Source: Comamonas antarctica
GTDB lineage: Bacteria > Pseudomonadota > Gammaproteobacteria > Burkholderiales > Burkholderiaceae_C
DNA length: 64,000 nt
Direction: 5' to 3'
Assembly: GCF_013363755.1 (NCBI RefSeq)
Contig: NZ_CP054841.1
Coordinates: 62,001 to 126,000, forward strand
Shown here: piece by piece, positions 7,552 through 15,645 of the stretch
Layout of the letters: every line of letters begins with the position of its first letter
Position numbering within the stretch: position 1 is the stretch's first letter
Program-made: the position numbers and the translations under genes
The notes under the pieces: generated by a model
Seen by the model: the letters and a program-made list of their open reading frames with translations, nothing else
What the model was told of the DNA's origin: nothing
Database searches by the model: none

Positions 7552-7691
7552 CGGGTCGGTCTTTCCAGAAAAGGCAGGAGTTTTCCGAAAGCCAGCAATG
7601 CACGATGGCGCCTGCCGCGGCATGCGGCACGGCGGAGTCCAAGCCATTGGTCGCTTCCCGGACACCCCGCCGGCAATGATCATTTCCTTCC

Positions 7692-7875
7692 TCGGCAGGT
7701 CTCCTGACTGGCAAGTCGCCGCTGGCGCGCCGCCTTCCCGAACCTGCGTTCAGTGGCATGTGGCGCGCCCGCTCGTTGCCTACAGTTGCGGGGGCAGTTC
7801 CATTGCATGGGCGCCCGGGTCTTGCAGACGGGGCGCTCTGGATTCCCTCATGCGGCTTTTTGACGGCGGCATGTC
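7692..7875 (-). promoter_or_regulatory. cobalamin riboswitch upstream of btuFCD
   Basis: Read on the minus strand, the leader shows the canonical order of AdoCbl-riboswitch elements: a GAGGGAATCC motif, CTGCCCCCGCAACTGTAGGC, the B12-box-like GCCACTG followed by GGGAAGGCGG, and the closing GCCAGTCAGGAGACCTGCC. It ends about 140 bases before the btuF start. Binding of adenosylcobalamin normally shuts off expression, so uptake should rise when cobalamin is scarce. The expression platform was not resolved. Confidence 0.93.
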
Positions 7876-7913
7876 CTTGCGGAACCGGAGGTGGGGGTTA
7901 ATGTAGCTGAACC

Positions 7914-7978: not shown

Positions 7979-8464
7979 ATGCCCATCGACACCGTTCATG
8001 CCTGCGCCCCCGTCCTTGATTTCCTCCAGCAGGCCCGCGCCGAGATGTTTGCCGGCCGCCTCGACACCTGCGCGATGGCGCCGGATCTGCGGGACTTCGA
8101 ATCCACCTACACCCAGGGCCACGGCCTGATGCTGGCCGCCCATGAGCCCGCCCTGGGCATTGTCGGCACCATTGCCTGGCGCGCCTATGACCATCGCTTT
8201 GCGCAGCTGGACTTTGCCGGCCGGCGCGTCGTGGAGGTGGTGCGGCTGTATGTGCGGCCCGCGTGCCGGCGGCGCGGCATTGCCGATGCGCTGTTCGCGG
8301 CGCTCAAGGAACAGGCGCGCGCGCAGGGCATCGAGGTGCTGTATCTGCATACCCACCCCTTCCTGCCCGGCGCCGAGGCTTTCTGGCAGCGCCATGGCTT
8401 CGAGGTCCTCTGCCGCGATGCCGATCCGCAATGGCAGACCATCCATATGCAATGCGCGCTGTAA
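7979..8464 (+). CDS. GNAT family N-acetyltransferase
   Basis: A 161-residue single-domain acetyltransferase. The core is VVEVVRLYVRPACRRRGIADALFAALKEQA, whose RRRGIA loop binds the acetyl-CoA pyrophosphate, and the downstream EAFWQRHGFEVL is the usual motif B. The acceptor is unknown. It stands alone between two oppositely directed cobalamin riboswitches. Because it reads toward cobW it could be transcribed into the second riboswitch, but a good -10 box starts just 34 bases after its stop, so cobW has its own promoter. No link to cobalamin metabolism can be shown from sequence. Confidence 0.85.
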   Translation: MPIDTVHACAPVLDFLQQARAEMFAGRLDTCAMAPDLRDFESTYTQGHGLMLAAHEPALGIVGTIAWRAYDHRFAQLDFAGRRVVEVVRLYVRPACRRRGIADALFAALKEQARAQGIEVLYLHTHPFLPGAEAFWQRHGFEVLCRDADPQWQTIHMQCAL

Positions 8465-8497: not shown

Positions 8498-8503
8498 TAT
8501 AAT
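8498..8503 (+). promoter_or_regulatory. probable -10 box of the cobW-cobN promoter
   Basis: A perfect TATAAT lies about ten bases before the first structured element of the plus-strand cobalamin riboswitch, just where a transcription start is expected. No good TTGACA-like -35 box stands 17 bases upstream, so an activator or another sigma preference is possible. Confidence 0.5.
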
Positions 8504-8512
8504 CGCCGCACC

Positions 8513-8702
8513 CGTACAGGAGTCCCGGGCCGCAGTCGCGGCCGGGGTGAAACGGGAAGACCGGTGACCTCCCGCGCGGGAGCATTCCGGCGCAGCCCCC
8601 GCTGCTGTAAGCCTGACAGACACATCTCGACGCCACTGGGCCGCGGCCCGGGAAGGCGGTGTGCGCTGGACGAAGGCAAGCCAGAATACCGACCTGTACG
8701 AA
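8513..8702 (+). promoter_or_regulatory. cobalamin riboswitch upstream of cobW-cobN-chlID
   Basis: The leader contains the standard elements in order: ACAGGAGTCCCGGG, GGTGAAACGGGAAGACCGGTG, GCAGCCCCCGCTGCTGTAAG, the B12-box core GCCACTG followed by GGGAAGGCGG, and AAGCCAGAATACCGACCTGTA. About 170 bases remain before the cobW ATG. A GC hairpin with arms 8751-8757 (CTGCGCG) and 8785-8791 (CGCGCAG), followed by CTTTTG, could act as an intrinsic terminator in the expression platform, though its U-run is short. Confidence 0.93.
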
Positions 8703-8872
8703 TGCCGTTGTCTGCCACGGGGTGTGGCGGCGAACGTTCCGCGGCCGCGCCTGCGCGCTGCCGCGCGCGTCGTCGCCCGTCTCCCGCGCAGCTTTTGTAC
8801 CCTTTGTGCTGGACCGCGCCGGGCATTGCCTGCCTTTCGCGTCGCCGGCATGGCCTCTTCCCGGAGCACTCA

Positions 8873-9928
8873 ATGAAGCACCTGCCAAAAATCCCCGCGA
8901 CCATCGTCACCGGCTTCCTGGGCAGCGGCAAGACCACGCTGCTGCGCCATATCCTCGAGAACGCGGGCGGGCGCCGCATTGCCGTCATCGTCAACGAATT
9001 CGGCGAGCTGGGCATCGATGGCGACATCCTGCGCAGCTGCGGCATCGGCTGCGACGAGAACGGCGTCGAGCAGCAGGGACAGCTTTATGAACTCGCCAAC
9101 GGCTGCATGTGCTGCACCGTGCAGGAAGAGTTCTACCCGGTGATGCGCGAGCTGATCGCGCGGCGCGACGACATCGACCATATCCTGATCGAGACCAGCG
9201 GCCTGGCGCTGCCCAAGCCGCTGGTGCAGGCCTTCAACTGGCCCGAGATCAAGAACGCCTGCACCGTCGATGCGGTGATCACCGTGGTCGACACGCCCGC
9301 CACCGCCGCAGGTCAGTTCGCGGCCAATCCGGCCGCGGTCGATGCCCAGCGCCGCCAGGACCCGAACCTCGACCACGAATCGCCGCTGCACGAGCTGTTC
9401 GAGGACCAGCTGCTGTCGGCCGACCTGGTGGTGCTGACCAAGCTCGATCTGGCCAGCAGCGAAGACCGCGCCAGGGTCGAAGCCATCGTGCGCGAGGAAG
9501 TGCCGGCGCAGGTGAAGATCGTCGCCGCCAACCAGGGCAAGATCGATCTGGGCGTGGTGCTGGGCCTGTCCAGCGCGTCGGAAGAAAGCATTGAGCAGCG
9601 CCAGAGCCACCACAGCCATGACGACGACCACGACCACGACGATTTCGACTCGATTGTCGTCAAGCTGCCCGAAGTCGAGCGCGAGGCCTTGCTGGCCACG
9701 CTCGAGCGCATCGTGGCCGCGCACCAGGTCTACCGCATCAAGGGCTTTGTCGCCGTGCCGGGCAAGCCCATGCGCCTGGTGGTGCATGGCGTGGGCACGC
9801 GCTTCGACAGCTATTTCGACCGCCGCTGGGCCGCGGGCGAGGCGCCGCAGACGCATCTGGTGCTGATCGGCCACGACCTCGACGACACCGCGATCCGCGC
9901 CGAACTCGCCACGCTGGGAGCGCGCTGA
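8873..9928 (+). CDS. cobW: CobW-type GTPase, metal chaperone of cobalamin synthesis
   Basis: A 351-residue G3E-family GTPase. Walker A is GFLGSGKTT (residues 14-22), the metal-binding CxCC motif is Cys78-Met-Cys80-Cys81 and the G4 motif is TKLD. A His/Asp-rich stretch near residues 244-256 (HHSHDDDHDHDD) precedes the C-terminal CobW domain. Proteins of this group deliver metal ions, here presumably cobalt, to the chelatase. The ATG at 8873 follows the riboswitch leader with GGAG nine bases upstream. Its stop overlaps the cobN start as TGATG, and chlI follows cobN, supporting a single cobalt-insertion operon repressed by cobalamin. Confidence 0.95.
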   Translation: MKHLPKIPATIVTGFLGSGKTTLLRHILENAGGRRIAVIVNEFGELGIDGDILRSCGIGCDENGVEQQGQLYELANGCMCCTVQEEFYPVMRELIARRDDIDHILIETSGLALPKPLVQAFNWPEIKNACTVDAVITVVDTPATAAGQFAANPAAVDAQRRQDPNLDHESPLHELFEDQLLSADLVVLTKLDLASSEDRARVEAIVREEVPAQVKIVAANQGKIDLGVVLGLSSASEESIEQRQSHHSHDDDHDHDDFDSIVVKLPEVEREALLATLERIVAAHQVYRIKGFVAVPGKPMRLVVHGVGTRFDSYFDRRWAAGEAPQTHLVLIGHDLDDTAIRAELATLGAR

Positions 9929-12900
9929 TGCATCTGCTTGCCGTCCAGCCCGGTGGCTTTGTCGACGACGAAGCCTTTGTCTCCAGCCTGGGCCAGACCC
10001 CGGCGCAGCTGGTGTTCCTGAGCGCGGCCGACACCACGCTGGCGCTGCTGGCCGAGGTCTATGGCCAGCTGCGCGGCGGCCCGGACGGCGAGCAGTGGCC
10101 GACAGTGCGCCTGGCCAATCTGATGCACCTGCGCCAGCCGGCCTCGGTCGATCTGTATGTCGACGAGGTGCTGCAGCACGCGCGCGTGATCGTCATCGAT
10201 CACCTGGGCGGCGAAAGCTACTGGCCCTACGGCACCGAACGCATCCGCGAGATCTGCCGCAGCAAGGGCATCGAGCTGGTGATGTTCTCGGGCGACACCA
10301 CCGAAGACCTGAACCTGCTGCAAAAAAGCACCGCCTCGATGGAGCAGTGCCGCAGCCTCTGGCGCTATCTGCGCGAAGGCGGCGCGGCCAATGCGCGCGA
10401 GCTGTTCCGCTACCTGTGGCACCAATTCCTCGGCGGTGCCCGGCCGGCCTTGCCACCCCAGCCCCTGCCGGCGGTCGCGGTCTACCATCCGGAACACGAC
10501 GCCGCGTCCGTTGACGCCTGGCAGCAGCCCGGCGCCTTGCAGTGGATCGACGGCGCGCCCGTGGTGCTGATCGTGTTCTACCGCGCGCATCTGCAGTCGG
10601 GCAACACGCAGGTGTTTCGCGCGCTCGGCGAGCAACTGCTGGCACGCGGCATGAACCCGCTGCCGCTGGCCCTGCTGTCGCTCAAGGACGCGGCCTGCAT
10701 GGCGATGCTGCACCAGCTGTGCGACCAGCAGCAGGTGGCACTGATTCTCAACACCACGTCGTTTTCGCAATCCTCGCTGGAAACACCGGGCGACCATGCG
10801 CTGGCCGGCGACATTCCGGTGCTGCAGGTCATCATGTCGGGCGCCAACGAGCAAAGCTGGCTCGAAGACGCGCATGGCCTGCAGCCGCGCGACATCGCCA
10901 TGCATGTGGCCATGCCCGAAGTCGACGGCCGCATCATCACGCGCGCCATCAGCTTCAAGGGCCGCTCGCACCGCAGCGAACTCACGCAATCGGATGTGGT
11001 GCAGTACCAGCCGCATGCCGAACGCCTGGGCTTCGTCGTGGACCTGGCCCAGCGCTGGTGCCGGCTGCGCCGCAAGGACAATGCCGACAAGCGCCTGGCG
11101 CTGATCCTGGCCAACTACCCGACCAAGGAAGGCCGGCTGGGCAATGGCGTCGGGCTCGACACGCCGGCCTCGGTGGTGCATATCCTGCAGGCGCTGCAGG
11201 CCCAGGGCTACTGCGTCGACACGCTGCCCGCCGATGGCGATGCGCTGATGCGGCAGCTGCAGCAGGGCATCACCAACGACCCCGATTCGTGGGCGGTGCG
11301 CCCCGCGCAGCAAAGCCTGGCGCTGGAAAGCTACCAGGCGTTCTTTGCGAGCCTGCCCGCAGCCAATCGGCAGGCGGTGCTGGAACGCTGGGGCGCGCCC
11401 GAGGCCGACCCGATGCTGCGCGCAGGCCGCTTCATGATTGCCGGGCTGCGCTGCGGCCAGGTGTTTGTGGGCATCCAGCCCGCGCGCGGCTATCAGCTCG
11501 ACCCTGCGGCCAGCTACCACGACCCCGACCTCGTGCCGCCGCACTACTACCTCGCGTTCTACCACTGGCTGCGCTCGGCCTGGGATGCCGATGCGATGGT
11601 GCATGTGGGCAAGCATGGCAATCTCGAATGGCTGCCGGGCAAGAGCGTGGCGCTGGCCAACACCTGCTGGCCCGACCTGGTGTTCGGGCCGATGCCGCAT
11701 CTCTATCCCTTTATCGTCAACGACCCGGGCGAAGGCACGCAGGCCAAGCGCCGCGCGCAGGCGGTGATCGTCGACCACCTGATGCCGCCGCTCACGCGCG
11801 CCGAGAGCTATGGGCCGACGCGCGACCTCGAACGCATGGTCGACGAGTACTACGACGCGATCACCATGGACCAGCGGCGCGCCGGATTGCTGCGCCGGCA
11901 GATCCTCGAGCATATCCTCGCCCACGACCTGCACCAGGACCTGGGCGTGGCCGCGCCGCGCGGCGCCGAAGAAGAGCAGTTGCTGCTCAACAAGACCGAT
12001 GCCTATCTGTGCGAGCTCAAGGAAAGCCAGATCCGCGACGGCCTGCACATCTTCGGCCAGTCGCCCGCGGGCCGGCTCGAGCGCGACACGCTGCTGGCGC
12101 TGGCGCGCCATCCCGTGGGCAACGGCCAGGGCGCGAACGCCAGCCTGATTGGCGCGCTGGCCGCCGATCTGCAACTCGGCGCCGATTTCAATCCGCTCGA
12201 TGCCGCCTGGGAAGCGCCCTGGACCGGACCGCGGCCCGAACTGCTGGCGCAGATCGATGCCCAGCCCTGGCGCCACGCCGGCGACACGCGCGAGCGGCTG
12301 GAGCTGCTGGCGCTCGACTGGCTGGAGCGGCCGCTCGAAGATCTGCGCGCCCGCCACGCCGCCATGGCCCAGACGCTGCAGGTGCTCGAACGCGTGCAGC
12401 GCGATCTGCGCCCGCGCCTCACGGCCTGCGGCGAACAGGAGATCCTGCAGCTGAGCCGCGGCCTCGAGGGCCGCTTCGTGCCCGCGGGCCCGAGCGGCGC
12501 GCCCACGCGCGGCCGGCCCGATGTGCTGCCCACCGGGCGCAACTTCTTTTCCATCGACACGCGCGCCGTGCCCACGCCCACCAGCTGGACGCTGGGACTG
12601 CAGTCGGCGCAGCTGCTGATCGAGAAATACACGCAGGAGCATGGCGACTACCCGCGCACGCTGGGCCTGTCGGTCTGGGGCACGGCCACCATGCGCACCG
12701 GCGGCGACGACATCGCGCAGGCCTTTGCGCTGCTGGGCGTGCGCCCGAAATGGGCCGACGGCAGCTGGCGCGTGGTGGATTTCGAAGTGCTGCCGATGGC
12801 GGTGCTGGGCCGCCCGCGCGTCGATGTGACACTGCGCGTGTCGGGCTTCTTCCGCGATGCGTTCACCAATGTGATCCGCCTGTTCGATGCGGCGGTGCAG

Positions 12901-13740
12901 AAGGTGGCCGATCTCGAGGACGAAGACGCGGACACCAACCCAATCCGCGCGCGCGTGCTGCTCGAAGCGCAACAGCTGCGCGCACAAGGCCTCGACGCCA
13001 AGGCCGCGCGCCACCAGGCCGGCCTGCGCGTGTTTGGCGCCAAGCCCGGCAGCTATGGCGCGGGCCTGCAAGGGCTGATGGACGGCAGGAACTGGGAAAC
13101 CGACGAGGACCTGGCCACGGCGTTTCGCAACTGGGGCGCGTATGCCTACGGCCAGAACGACCATGGCACGCCACTACCCGAGACTTTCGTGCGCCGCCTC
13201 GGCGCCATGCAACTGGTGGTGCAAAACCAGGACAACCGCGAGCACGACCTGCTTGACTCCGACGACTACTACCAGTTCCAGGGCGGCATGGCCGCGGCCG
13301 TGCGCCATTACAGCGGCCAGCAGCCCGCGCTGTATTTCGGCGACCACAGCAACCCGCAGGCGCCGCGCATGCGCACGCTGCAGGAGGAGATCAGCCGCGT
13401 GGTGCGCGCGCGCGTGACCAATCCCAAATGGATCGACGGCATCAAGCGCCATGGCTACAAGGGCGCGGCCGAGGTCGCGGCCACGGTCGACTATCTGTTT
13501 GCGTTCGACGCCACGGCGCGCGTGGTGCGGGGCGACCAATATGCGCGCGTGACCGATGCCTTTGTCGCCGATGCCGCCACGCGCAGCTTCCTGCAGCAGC
13601 ACAATCCCGCGGCCTTCCACGGCATCTGCGAGCGCCTGCTCGAAGCCATCCAGCGCGGGCTGTGGCAAGACAGCGGCGACTACCAGCCACTGCTCGAACA
13701 ACAATTGCTTGAAGCCGAACAGCTTCTGGAGAACCGATGA
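9928..13740 (+). CDS. cobN: cobaltochelatase large subunit CobN
   Basis: A 1270-residue protein, matching the usual length of CobN (about 1275) and of the homologous BchH/ChlH. It inserts Co2+ into hydrogenobyrinic acid a,c-diamide in the aerobic cobalamin pathway, using ATP hydrolysed by the partner AAA/VWA subunits. Recognisable segments include LDTPASVVHILQ, the HVGKHGNLEWLPGK motif conserved in CobN/BchH with a putative metal-ligating His, PHLYPFIVNDPGEGTQAKRR and the C-terminal FRNWGAYAYG region. It overlaps cobW by one base and chlI by four bases (ATGA), so all three are translationally coupled. Confidence 0.97.
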   Translation: MHLLAVQPGGFVDDEAFVSSLGQTPAQLVFLSAADTTLALLAEVYGQLRGGPDGEQWPTVRLANLMHLRQPASVDLYVDEVLQHARVIVIDHLGGESYWPYGTERIREICRSKGIELVMFSGDTTEDLNLLQKSTASMEQCRSLWRYLREGGAANARELFRYLWHQFLGGARPALPPQPLPAVAVYHPEHDAASVDAWQQPGALQWIDGAPVVLIVFYRAHLQSGNTQVFRALGEQLLARGMNPLPLALLSLKDAACMAMLHQLCDQQQVALILNTTSFSQSSLETPGDHALAGDIPVLQVIMSGANEQSWLEDAHGLQPRDIAMHVAMPEVDGRIITRAISFKGRSHRSELTQSDVVQYQPHAERLGFVVDLAQRWCRLRRKDNADKRLALILANYPTKEGRLGNGVGLDTPASVVHILQALQAQGYCVDTLPADGDALMRQLQQGITNDPDSWAVRPAQQSLALESYQAFFASLPAANRQAVLERWGAPEADPMLRAGRFMIAGLRCGQVFVGIQPARGYQLDPAASYHDPDLVPPHYYLAFYHWLRSAWDADAMVHVGKHGNLEWLPGKSVALANTCWPDLVFGPMPHLYPFIVNDPGEGTQAKRRAQAVIVDHLMPPLTRAESYGPTRDLERMVDEYYDAITMDQRRAGLLRRQILEHILAHDLHQDLGVAAPRGAEEEQLLLNKTDAYLCELKESQIRDGLHIFGQSPAGRLERDTLLALARHPVGNGQGANASLIGALAADLQLGADFNPLDAAWEAPWTGPRPELLAQIDAQPWRHAGDTRERLELLALDWLERPLEDLRARHAAMAQTLQVLERVQRDLRPRLTACGEQEILQLSRGLEGRFVPAGPSGAPTRGRPDVLPTGRNFFSIDTRAVPTPTSWTLGLQSAQLLIEKYTQEHGDYPRTLGLSVWGTATMRTGGDDIAQAFALLGVRPKWADGSWRVVDFEVLPMAVLGRPRVDVTLRVSGFFRDAFTNVIRLFDAAVQKVADLEDEDADTNPIRARVLLEAQQLRAQGLDAKAARHQAGLRVFGAKPGSYGAGLQGLMDGRNWETDEDLATAFRNWGAYAYGQNDHGTPLPETFVRRLGAMQLVVQNQDNREHDLLDSDDYYQFQGGMAAAVRHYSGQQPALYFGDHSNPQAPRMRTLQEEISRVVRARVTNPKWIDGIKRHGYKGAAEVAATVDYLFAFDATARVVRGDQYARVTDAFVADAATRSFLQQHNPAAFHGICERLLEAIQRGLWQDSGDYQPLLEQQLLEAEQLLENR

Positions 13741-14801
13741 CTTTCCCCCCGGCCTTTCCCTTTACCGCCCTGCAGGGCCAGCAGCCGCTGCAGACGGCGC
13801 TGCTGCTGGTGGCCGTGGACCCGCTGCTCGGCGGCGTGCTGGTCGAAGGCCCGCGCGGCACGGCCAAGTCGACCAGTGCGCGCGCGCTCGCCGCGCTGCT
13901 GCCCGCGGGCCGCTTCGTCAACCTGCCGCTGGGCGCGACCGAGGAGCAACTGGTCGGCACGCTCGATCTCGAAGCCGCGCTGCAGGGCAGCCGCGTGCAG
14001 TTCCGCCCCGGCCTGCTGGCCCAGGCGCACCAGGGCATTCTCTATGTCGACGAAGTCAATCTGCTGGCCGACGGCCTGGTCGATCTGCTGCTCGATGTCA
14101 GCGCCAGCGGCATCAACCGCGTGGAGCGCGACGGCGTCTCGCACCAGCACCCGGCGCGCATCGCGCTGATCGGCACCATGAACCCCGAGGAAGGCCAGCT
14201 GCGCCCGCAATTGCTCGACCGCTTCGGCCTGTTCGTGCAGCTGGACAACGTGCCCGATGTCGCCACGCGCAAGGCCATCGTCAAGACGCGCATGGCGTAT
14301 GACGCCGACCACGAGGCGTTCGCAGCGCAATATGCCCAGGCGCAGCAGGCGCTGGCCCGGCGCGTCGCGACGGCGCGCGCGAGCGTGGCTTCGCTCGACT
14401 GGTCCGATGCCGTGCATGAGCAGGTTGCCCAGCTGTGCCAGCAGGCGGGTGTCGAAGGCGTGCGTGCCGATCTGGTGATGCTGCGCGCGGCGCGTGCGCA
14501 CGCGGCGCTGGCCGGCCGCAGCGAGGTGACGCAGGCCGATGTCACCGCTGTGGCGGAACTCGCACTGGCGCACCGGCGCAGCCAGGCGGGCGACGCAAGC
14601 CAGGCTTCGCCGCCGCCGCCGTCGGAGCAACAGCCTGCCAGCACCCCGCCCCCGCCGACTGCCGCATCGCAAGCTGACACTGGCAATGCGCAGAGCCCTG
14701 GCGAAAGCCAGTCGGAACATTGGGGCGCCCTGCCCCCGCCCCAGGCCACGGGTCTGCAGACCGTCAAACCGCTGAAGGCGCTCGCGCCAAAAAAAGCCTG
14801 A
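13737..14801 (+). CDS. chlI: ChlI/BchI-like AAA+ ATPase subunit of the cobalt chelatase
   Basis: A 354-residue AAA+ protein. Walker A is EGPRGTAKST (about 37-46), Walker B is GILYVDEVNLL (about 101-111), and the sensor region GTMNPEEGQLRPQLLDRFGL is typical of Mg-chelatase subunit I. It stands in for CobS in powering CobN. The last 70 residues form a Pro/Ser/Gln-rich linker like that found between the AAA and VWA halves of full-length ChlD. The frame closes as CCA AAA AAA GCC TGA at an A7 tract, and the VWA domain continues in the -1 frame, so this ORF is probably both a free short subunit and the front half of a fused ChlD made by frameshifting. Confidence 0.93.
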   Translation: MTFPPAFPFTALQGQQPLQTALLLVAVDPLLGGVLVEGPRGTAKSTSARALAALLPAGRFVNLPLGATEEQLVGTLDLEAALQGSRVQFRPGLLAQAHQGILYVDEVNLLADGLVDLLLDVSASGINRVERDGVSHQHPARIALIGTMNPEEGQLRPQLLDRFGLFVQLDNVPDVATRKAIVKTRMAYDADHEAFAAQYAQAQQALARRVATARASVASLDWSDAVHEQVAQLCQQAGVEGVRADLVMLRAARAHAALAGRSEVTQADVTAVAELALAHRRSQAGDASQASPPPPSEQQPASTPPPPTAASQADTGNAQSPGESQSEHWGALPPPQATGLQTVKPLKALAPKKA

Positions 14802-15454
14802 CGCGTCCTGCGCTGGCCGGCCAGGCCAGCGTGGGGCGCGGCAGCAATACCGCGCGCAAGGGCCGCCGCGACGCTGCGCCCGGCCAGCAGCTGGACTGGA
14901 TCAGGACCCTGCTGCGCAAGGGCCCGCGGCGTCTGCAAGCGGGGGACCTGCGCTATCGGCCGCAGCCCCGGGGCAGCAGCACGCTGCATTGCGTGCTGCT
15001 CGACATGTCGGCCTCCATGCTGCGCGGCGAAAAGCTCGCACTGGCCAAGGGCTGCCTGCTCGCGCTGACGCAGGACTTCTACCGTCGGCGCGAGCATCTG
15101 GCGGTGATTGGTTTCTCGGGCCATGAGGCCCGGCTGCTGCAGGCGCCGGGCAAGGCCGTGGCCTTCAACGCCGGCTGGATCCAGCCGCTGCGCGGCGGCG
15201 GCGCGACGCCCGTGGCGTCGGCCATGCAGCTGGCCGAAGCTGTGCTGCAGCGCGCGCGCCGCGCCTCGTCCGGCCAGTTGCTGTCGCTGTGGCTGCTGAC
15301 CGACGGCCGCTTTGCCGCCCTGCCCACGCGCCCTAAGCTTGCCGACTGCTGCCAGATCGTCGACTTCGAGAACGAGGCCATCGCGCTGCAGCGCTGCCAG
15401 CGGCTCGCGCGGGAATGGGACGCGCAGTGGATCGGCGCGGCGCAGCTGCTTTAG
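14720..15454 (+). CDS. chlD: VWA-domain subunit of the cobalt chelatase (ChlD C-terminal half, CobT-like)
   Basis: This frame runs from a TTG at 14720 to the stop at 15454, but residues before about 14795 look like out-of-frame translation of the chlI linker. From there on a short basic segment leads into a von Willebrand A domain with an intact MIDAS motif (LLDMSAS, DxSxS) and the later LLTDGRF strand. In the Mg-chelatase and CobNST families this domain bridges the ATPase ring and the large subunit. There is no convincing independent start: only TTG 14720 and GTG 14831 exist and neither has a good ribosome site. Expression is more likely by -1 frameshifting from chlI. Confidence 0.85.
   Translation: MGRPAPAPGHGSADRQTAEGARAKKSLTRPALAGQASVGRGSNTARKGRRDAAPGQQLDWIRTLLRKGPRRLQAGDLRYRPQPRGSSTLHCVLLDMSASMLRGEKLALAKGCLLALTQDFYRRREHLAVIGFSGHEARLLQAPGKAVAFNAGWIQPLRGGGATPVASAMQLAEAVLQRARRASSGQLLSLWLLTDGRFAALPTRPKLADCCQIVDFENEAIALQRCQRLAREWDAQWIGAAQLL
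14789..14840 (+). promoter_or_regulatory. probable programmed -1 ribosomal frameshift signal joining ChlI and VWA frames
   Basis: The heptamer A_AAA_AAA occupies 14789-14795 in the correct zero-frame phase. The zero-frame stop TGA is at 14799-14801. Six bases after the heptamer begins a long GC hairpin: 14802-14808 pairs with 14834-14840, and 14811-14818 pairs perfectly with 14824-14831 around a five-base loop. Slippage by -1 changes KKA-stop to KKSLTR and continues into the VWA domain, giving a 572-residue AAA-linker-VWA protein. Programmed frameshifting in chlD-type genes has been proposed in the literature; the structure here is my own reading. Confidence 0.75.
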
Positions 15455-15645
15455 CGGCTAAAAAAACGCTGCCGCGCATATCCCCAGCGCAAAAAAGCCT
15501 TCAGCGCTTGGGGACGTAGGCGGCCGCGCGGACAACGCCACCGCGCGATCCAGGGATAATCCTATTGCATTTTTTATAGCATTCATCCATAAGACCCGAC
15601 CCGCGACTGGCCGCCCTGCTGCTGCCGGCCCGCGCGACACCCTCC

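Follow-up and report, generated by a model that had tools for sequence, protein, structure and literature searches.

The three-gene chelatases, Mg-chelatase ChlI/ChlD/ChlH and CobS/CobT/CobN, are built from a AAA+ small subunit, a medium subunit with AAA+ and VWA domains, and a large subunit of the CobN/ChlH kind. In both systems, the small and medium subunits are encoded by separate genes. A 2020 article by Antonov in Mol Biol Evol is said to deal with the fs-chlD cobalt chelatase.

Antonov et al. 2013 (PMC3711429) described a cluster of 23 frameshifted "magnesium chelatase" genes, with members from Pseudomonas, Burkholderia, Delftia, Herpetosiphon, and two archaeal genera. In E. coli, cassettes with 11, 9, or 7 A's shifted at rates of 63, 40, and 10%, respectively; these came from three other members of the cluster, not from the gene that we discuss here. 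Atkins et al. 2016 (PMC5009743) also discuss this cluster and report that its structure lacks strong sequence conservation. The sections of these two papers on the cluster name no Shine-Dalgarno element for chlD, and one may already be in print in the 2020 article. Kuznetsov et al. 2022 (PMC9227772) propose that fs-chlD gives rise to both subunits of a cobalt chelatase.

We examined a 64,000-nucleotide stretch of DNA from Comamonas antarctica, which we will call the window; all coordinates are positions within it. We consider it likely that the window's chlD gene is an fs-chlD of the aerobic B12 route, and that a programmed -1 shift yields a 354-residue small subunit and a 572-residue medium subunit, both of which act with CobN. 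As far as PMC3711429 and PMC5009743 describe the "magnesium chelatase" cluster, it has the same gene layout as the window's gene, a -1 shift at A_AAA_AAR, and a potential downstream structure. Delftia is a named member, and its records L092, L095, and L112 share their junctions with loci L026, L023, and L027 from our genus sample, which puts close kin of the window inside the published group. The window's gene also resembles the fs-chlD cobalt chelatase as outlined in PMC9227772: small and medium subunits apparently come from one chlD, there is a cobN, and there is no separate small-subunit gene. We see no difference in kind from that outline, and the signal is mapped more exactly here. In short, this kind of gene is already published, and the window adds a well-supported member with a finer map of the signal. 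An earlier reading of the window, made from its sequence only, had noted that frameshifting in chlD was proposed to make short (ChlI/CobS-like) and long (ChlD/CobT-like) subunits, and PMC9227772 bears this out.

The zero frame (13737..14801, forward strand) encodes 354 amino acids, which comprise a ChlI-like AAA+ domain and then a Pro/Gln linker, and it ends with a TGA stop codon at 14799..14801 (forward strand). The -1 frame (14795..15454, forward strand) continues into 219 amino acids with a VWA domain (Pfam VWA_2, E = 5.4e-9), just as the sequence-only reading had it. The predicted ChlD-like medium subunit would join the N-terminal part to this extension (353 + 219 = 572 amino acids), so the product lengths of 354 and 572 residues that were suggested earlier agree with the frames. 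The N-terminal part, as in the short form, matches the structures of ChlI (8osf, E = 4.4e-74) and BchI (1g8p, E = 4e-73), and the -1-frame tail matches BchD (2x31, E = 6e-11). The AAA+ part, which is in both products, can be aligned with ChlI over most of its length, including the Walker, sensor, and Arg-finger stretches. The VWA extension contains a MIDAS-like DMSAS stretch. TIGR02442 (putative cobaltochelatase) scores 405 and 75 bits, split over the two frames, and its curated cut-off for a single frame is higher, at 779 bits. As expected of an fs-chlD, a ChlI-like AAA+ part and a VWA part lie in two overlapping frames.

Upstream of chlD, on the same strand, are a cobalamin riboswitch (8501..8711, Rfam RF00174, 101.6 bits, E = 2.8e-24), cobW (8873..9928), and cobN, which encodes the large subunit of cobalt chelatase (9928..13740; TIGR02257, 1608 bits against a cut-off of 822). 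CobW was identified by TIGR02475 (E = 7.9e-155 on 8885-9925), and its start is placed at the ATG that precedes 8885 by four codons. Among the 73 loci of the window's type that we describe below, chlD lies behind cobN in 71. The CobS (TIGR01650) and CobT (TIGR01651) models have no match across the whole genome, which is 99.86% complete, and the only match to TIGR02442 (the ChlI/ChlD model) elsewhere in the genome is remote (E = 2.6e-7). This one remote match aside, cobN is present and there is no separate small-subunit gene, as in other fs-chlD systems. Given the matches to ChlI/BchI and BchD, and given the lack of other close genes, the short product is probably the small subunit and the long product the medium subunit. 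It is very probable that two subunits of a metal chelatase come from this one gene. A second cobalamin riboswitch, on the reverse strand (7677..7904), heads open reading frames for a periplasmic binding protein, a FecCD permease, and an ABC ATPase. The two riboswitches are divergent, with an open reading frame for a GNAT acetyltransferase (7979-8464) between them, and they were the only matches to pass in an Rfam scan of the whole window.

To describe the relatives of this gene, we used three samples of genomes. Homologues with an E value of 1e-20 or below were present in 39 of the 53 genomes of the genus sample, one in each. Of the 299 genomes in the family sample, 81 had a match at 1e-40 or better (again, one each), of which 32, from 21 genera, were of the window's type (E of 1.7e-86 or below) and 49 were weaker (7.7e-69 to 1.6e-46). 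Judging by the part matched, the weaker ones are ChlI/BchI-like; two of them recurred in the order sample (L149 and L156). The order sample added five loci of the window's type, from five genera. We read 94 loci in all and assigned 73 to the window's type (L005-L072 and L131-L135), by strength of match and not by frame. The other 21 (L136-L156) were set aside: nine are single-frame genes, eleven have no downstream VWA match (this includes L136, with E = 1.4e-80), and L144 appears to be a BchI with a separate gene after it. In the 12 genomes of the window's type in which all candidates were scored, none of the further ChlI matches was better than about 2e-6; the family and order scans scored the best five or six candidates per genome, so absence of a second ChlI carries less weight there than in the genus sample or in genomes with every candidate scored.

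All 73 homologues of the window's type carry the VWA part in the -1 frame. If the two frames were truly one, and the break were a sequencing error or the mark of a pseudogene, then the homopolymer would be the natural place for it. But the identical break recurs in 73 of 73 separate genomes, so we rejected this explanation, which is almost certainly wrong. Instead, this appears to be a clean and apparently chromosomal programmed frameshift that is kept in 26 sampled genera.

We also read 58 named loci. The -1 layout was found in 20 of them, including four Pseudomonas loci and Lampropedia. In the remaining 38, the VWA part was in the same frame (14), was in the +1 frame far downstream (2), or had no match within reach (22). 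One record titled Pantoea sp. 18069 (L074) has a gene that is 83% identical to the window's, and the title looks wrong for the group.

At the end of the zero frame, the codons are CCA AAA AAA GCC TGA, which places an A7 run (14789..14795, forward strand) in the X_XXY_YYZ register. This confirms the in-phase A_AAA_AAA heptamer that was noticed earlier. The zero-frame stop had been placed six bases after the heptamer; the TGA is indeed there, but only three bases separate it from the heptamer, and the sixth base is its last. A7 occurs seven times in the window, counting both strands and including two overlapping matches, where 0.79 would be expected. One of these lies at 15460-15466, a few bases after the -1 frame has ended, in a possible terminator region.

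The sequence-only reading had suggested an alignment of the junction in related genomes, and both the A7 and the stem that follows it prove to be conserved. As expected of an fs-chlD, a slippery site is conserved in the overlap of the frames: A7 is kept in 72 of the 73 homologues. The exception (L071) has C_CCA_AAA, which is also of the X_XXY_YYZ form. We will refer to the loci with A7 as the 72, and to those that are at most 80% identical to each other from -60 to +70 as the 48 non-redundant sequences. The codon before AAA AAA varies (GCA, CCA, ACA, TCA, CTA, CAA, GGA, or GTA), but its final A is present in 72 of 72. For comparison, across the 48 non-redundant genes only 7.5% of third positions in the N-terminal part are A, and lysine codons there are AAG 115 times and AAA 39 times. 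In 17 of the 72 loci (L024, L028-L041, L063, and L068), the zero-frame stop lies 24 nt past the heptamer rather than 3, within the hairpin, and the short product is seven residues longer. This later stop is seen in none of the named loci with the -1 layout.

The heptamer is followed by a predicted stimulatory hairpin (14802..14840, forward strand) that opens six bases past it, and the zero-frame stop sits within this 6-nt spacer. The hairpin is 39 nt long, with 17 unbroken pairs (three of them G-U; 14802-14818 with 14824-14840) and a 5-nt loop. Over 14796-14850, the minimum free energy comes to -41.4 kcal/mol (z = -5.03), and none of 200 shuffled sequences was as good. So its size and start were given correctly in the sequence-only reading, but "two-part" does not describe it: the stem is continuous in the window, and internal loops are found in relatives. 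No Rfam family exists for the junction (five matches fell below the threshold).

Across relatives, the position of the stem is fixed. A 6-bp helix begins exactly at +7 in 47 of the 48 non-redundant sequences (L046 lacks it). Helices start at +6 in 11 of 48, at any given position from +1 to +5 in 2-5 of 48, and at +8 to +10 in 27-33 of 48; the last is as expected of a longer helix. Similarly, when an 8-nt arm is paired with the downstream sequence, the duplex energy averaged over these 48 peaks at +7 (-15.7 kcal/mol), against a background mean of -9.5 and a lowest background position mean of -11.5 kcal/mol. The fourth pair of the stem is A-U in 17 sequences, C-G in 13, G-C in 10, U-A in 6, and U-G in 1, which are compensatory changes, and when arms are exchanged between sequences, 529 of 2162 combinations pair. 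Because the 3' arm was picked by complementarity, the pair types and the arm swaps favour pairing, and the comparison across arm starts is the control. Fold by fold, z was below -2 in 45 of the 72 loci (in 60-nt windows, which leave out the 3' arm in some), and a shuffle test for each sequence gave p < 0.05 in 23 of the 48. Among six non-A7 loci that we folded, a helix from +7 was predicted in L071 and in L083, L088, and L090 from Pseudomonas. In L086, the arms at +7 are complementary, but the minimum-energy fold differs; L084 has its complementary 3' arm beyond the stretch that was folded. L071 has the lowest-energy fold of the six (-51 kcal/mol). As expected of an fs-chlD, a downstream RNA structure is present and conserved, and it putatively stimulates the shift. 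PMC5009743 sees no strong conservation in the sequence of the structure; in contrast, the window's relatives have a fixed stem start at +7 and covariation.

Because the register of the heptamer, the 6-nt spacer, and the covarying stem are conserved in loci from three families of the order, programmed -1 ribosomal frameshifting appears to be by far the best reading of this junction. In Comamonas antarctica, ribosomes that stay in frame would stop at the TGA that ends at 14801 and release the ChlI-like AAA+ small subunit of 354 amino acids. The hairpin, six nucleotides past A_AAA_AAA, would hold back a fraction of ribosomes, both Lys-tRNAs would slip back by one base, and the ChlD-like medium subunit of 572 amino acids, with its VWA domain, would be made. 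Both subunits would then join CobN. What we infer from the sequences is the slippage itself and its rate in this organism, and that the short protein has a role of its own. The ratio of the two subunits may be set by translation, as the sequence-only reading proposed. The earlier claim of a programmed -1 frameshift that likely gives two cobalt-chelatase subunits is supported by the conserved signal, by the linkage to cobN, and by the subunit matches.

An A7 homopolymer could also lead RNA polymerase, rather than the ribosome, to slip, and the published cluster's runs of 9 and 11 A's do shift more (PMC3711429). But the run is exactly seven in 71 of the 72 loci and eight in the other (L048). Also, four Pseudomonas loci with A_AAA_AAG and Lampropedia with A_AAA_AAC have a run of just six, and L071 has C_CCA_AAA, yet all retain the tandem-slip register. 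The tandem-slip register, the spacer and stem that are fixed to the base, and these relatives with shorter runs point to ribosomal rather than transcriptional slippage, and we rejected the latter as very improbable.

Another way to produce the VWA part would be to translate it separately, by internal initiation or by coupling at the TGA. The -1 frame does contain a TTG at 14720 and a GTG at 14831, and downstream initiation is reported for some of the frame-transition genes in PMC3711429. However, neither start is conserved, in keeping with the earlier claim that the VWA part has no credible start of its own: 23 of the 48 non-redundant sequences have no start in the span that runs to +75 from the upstream stop (150 nt back at most), and up to +75 no -1-frame start position is common to at least five of the 48. 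We rejected internal starts on these grounds and consider them even less probable than slippage by the polymerase.

Frameshifting might be real while the long protein alone matters; the short protein would then be a by-product, and the signal would merely set the amount of the long one. We consider this unlikely, although some evidence does point that way. In nine genomes of the order (L137-L143, L145, and L151), a single-frame chlD lies beside cobN, and these genomes, with all candidates scored, have no second strong ChlI match. The single open frames are of 629-730 amino acids, and that of L140 extends further upstream. This suggests that neither the split nor a separate small subunit is required in every lineage, and that one chlD product can apparently suffice in other lineages. 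But these nine appear to form a different subfamily, which has an insertion that contains Cys. In the window's lineage, the frame break is kept in 73 of 73, although one indel would fuse the frames, and most of the AAA+ part, with its motif stretches, can be aligned with ChlI. Both products are probably needed in this lineage. A hidden dnaX-like shift in reverse within the single-frame genes is unsupported: a scan for A and T runs in the nine genes found no slip signal. Seven of them have no run of five or more A's or T's, and L142 and L143 have A6 at most and no A_AAA_AAR.

E. coli dnaX is, in the accounts that we drew on, another close comparison. Like the window's gene, it combines A_AAA_AAR with a downstream hairpin, and it shares an upstream Shine-Dalgarno-like patch with many relatives of the window's chlD. 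The shifted product of dnaX is the short one, whereas that of chlD is the long one. In dnaX, the Shine-Dalgarno stimulator lies about 10 nt upstream of the heptamer. In the window's chlD the patch is weak, unlike that of dnaX: it is AAGG (14775..14778, forward strand), it ends 10 nt before the A7, and its pairing energy of -2.8 kcal/mol is matched or bettered by 31% of background windows. Many relatives have GGAG or GAGG at the same place. Thirty-two of the 48 non-redundant relatives reach -5 kcal/mol or lower (16 are above it), as compared to 15.8% of 8640 in-phase windows from the same genes, and in the four Pseudomonas loci tested, the patch ranges from 0 to -2.8 kcal/mol. The patch is thus a trend among relatives more than an established property of the window's copy. 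It could be that the chlD signal of the Comamonadaceae is a full three-part device like that of dnaX (patch, heptamer, and covarying +7 stem), with the strength of the patch varying by species and tuning the ratio of small to medium subunits in each lineage; we propose this tentatively and lean slightly against it. The fixed +7 stem with its compensatory changes, the variable patch, and the single-frame genes elsewhere make the reason for keeping the split directly testable.

Averaged over sequences, pairing with the 16S-tail string peaks at -5.2 kcal/mol in 8-nt windows that end 7 nt upstream, as compared to -1.7 elsewhere. The choice of codons at this place is skewed as well: where codon -14 encodes glycine, it is GGA in 14 of 17 cases, as compared to 47 of 1236 glycines elsewhere (binomial p = 8e-18, which is optimistic since the sequences are related).
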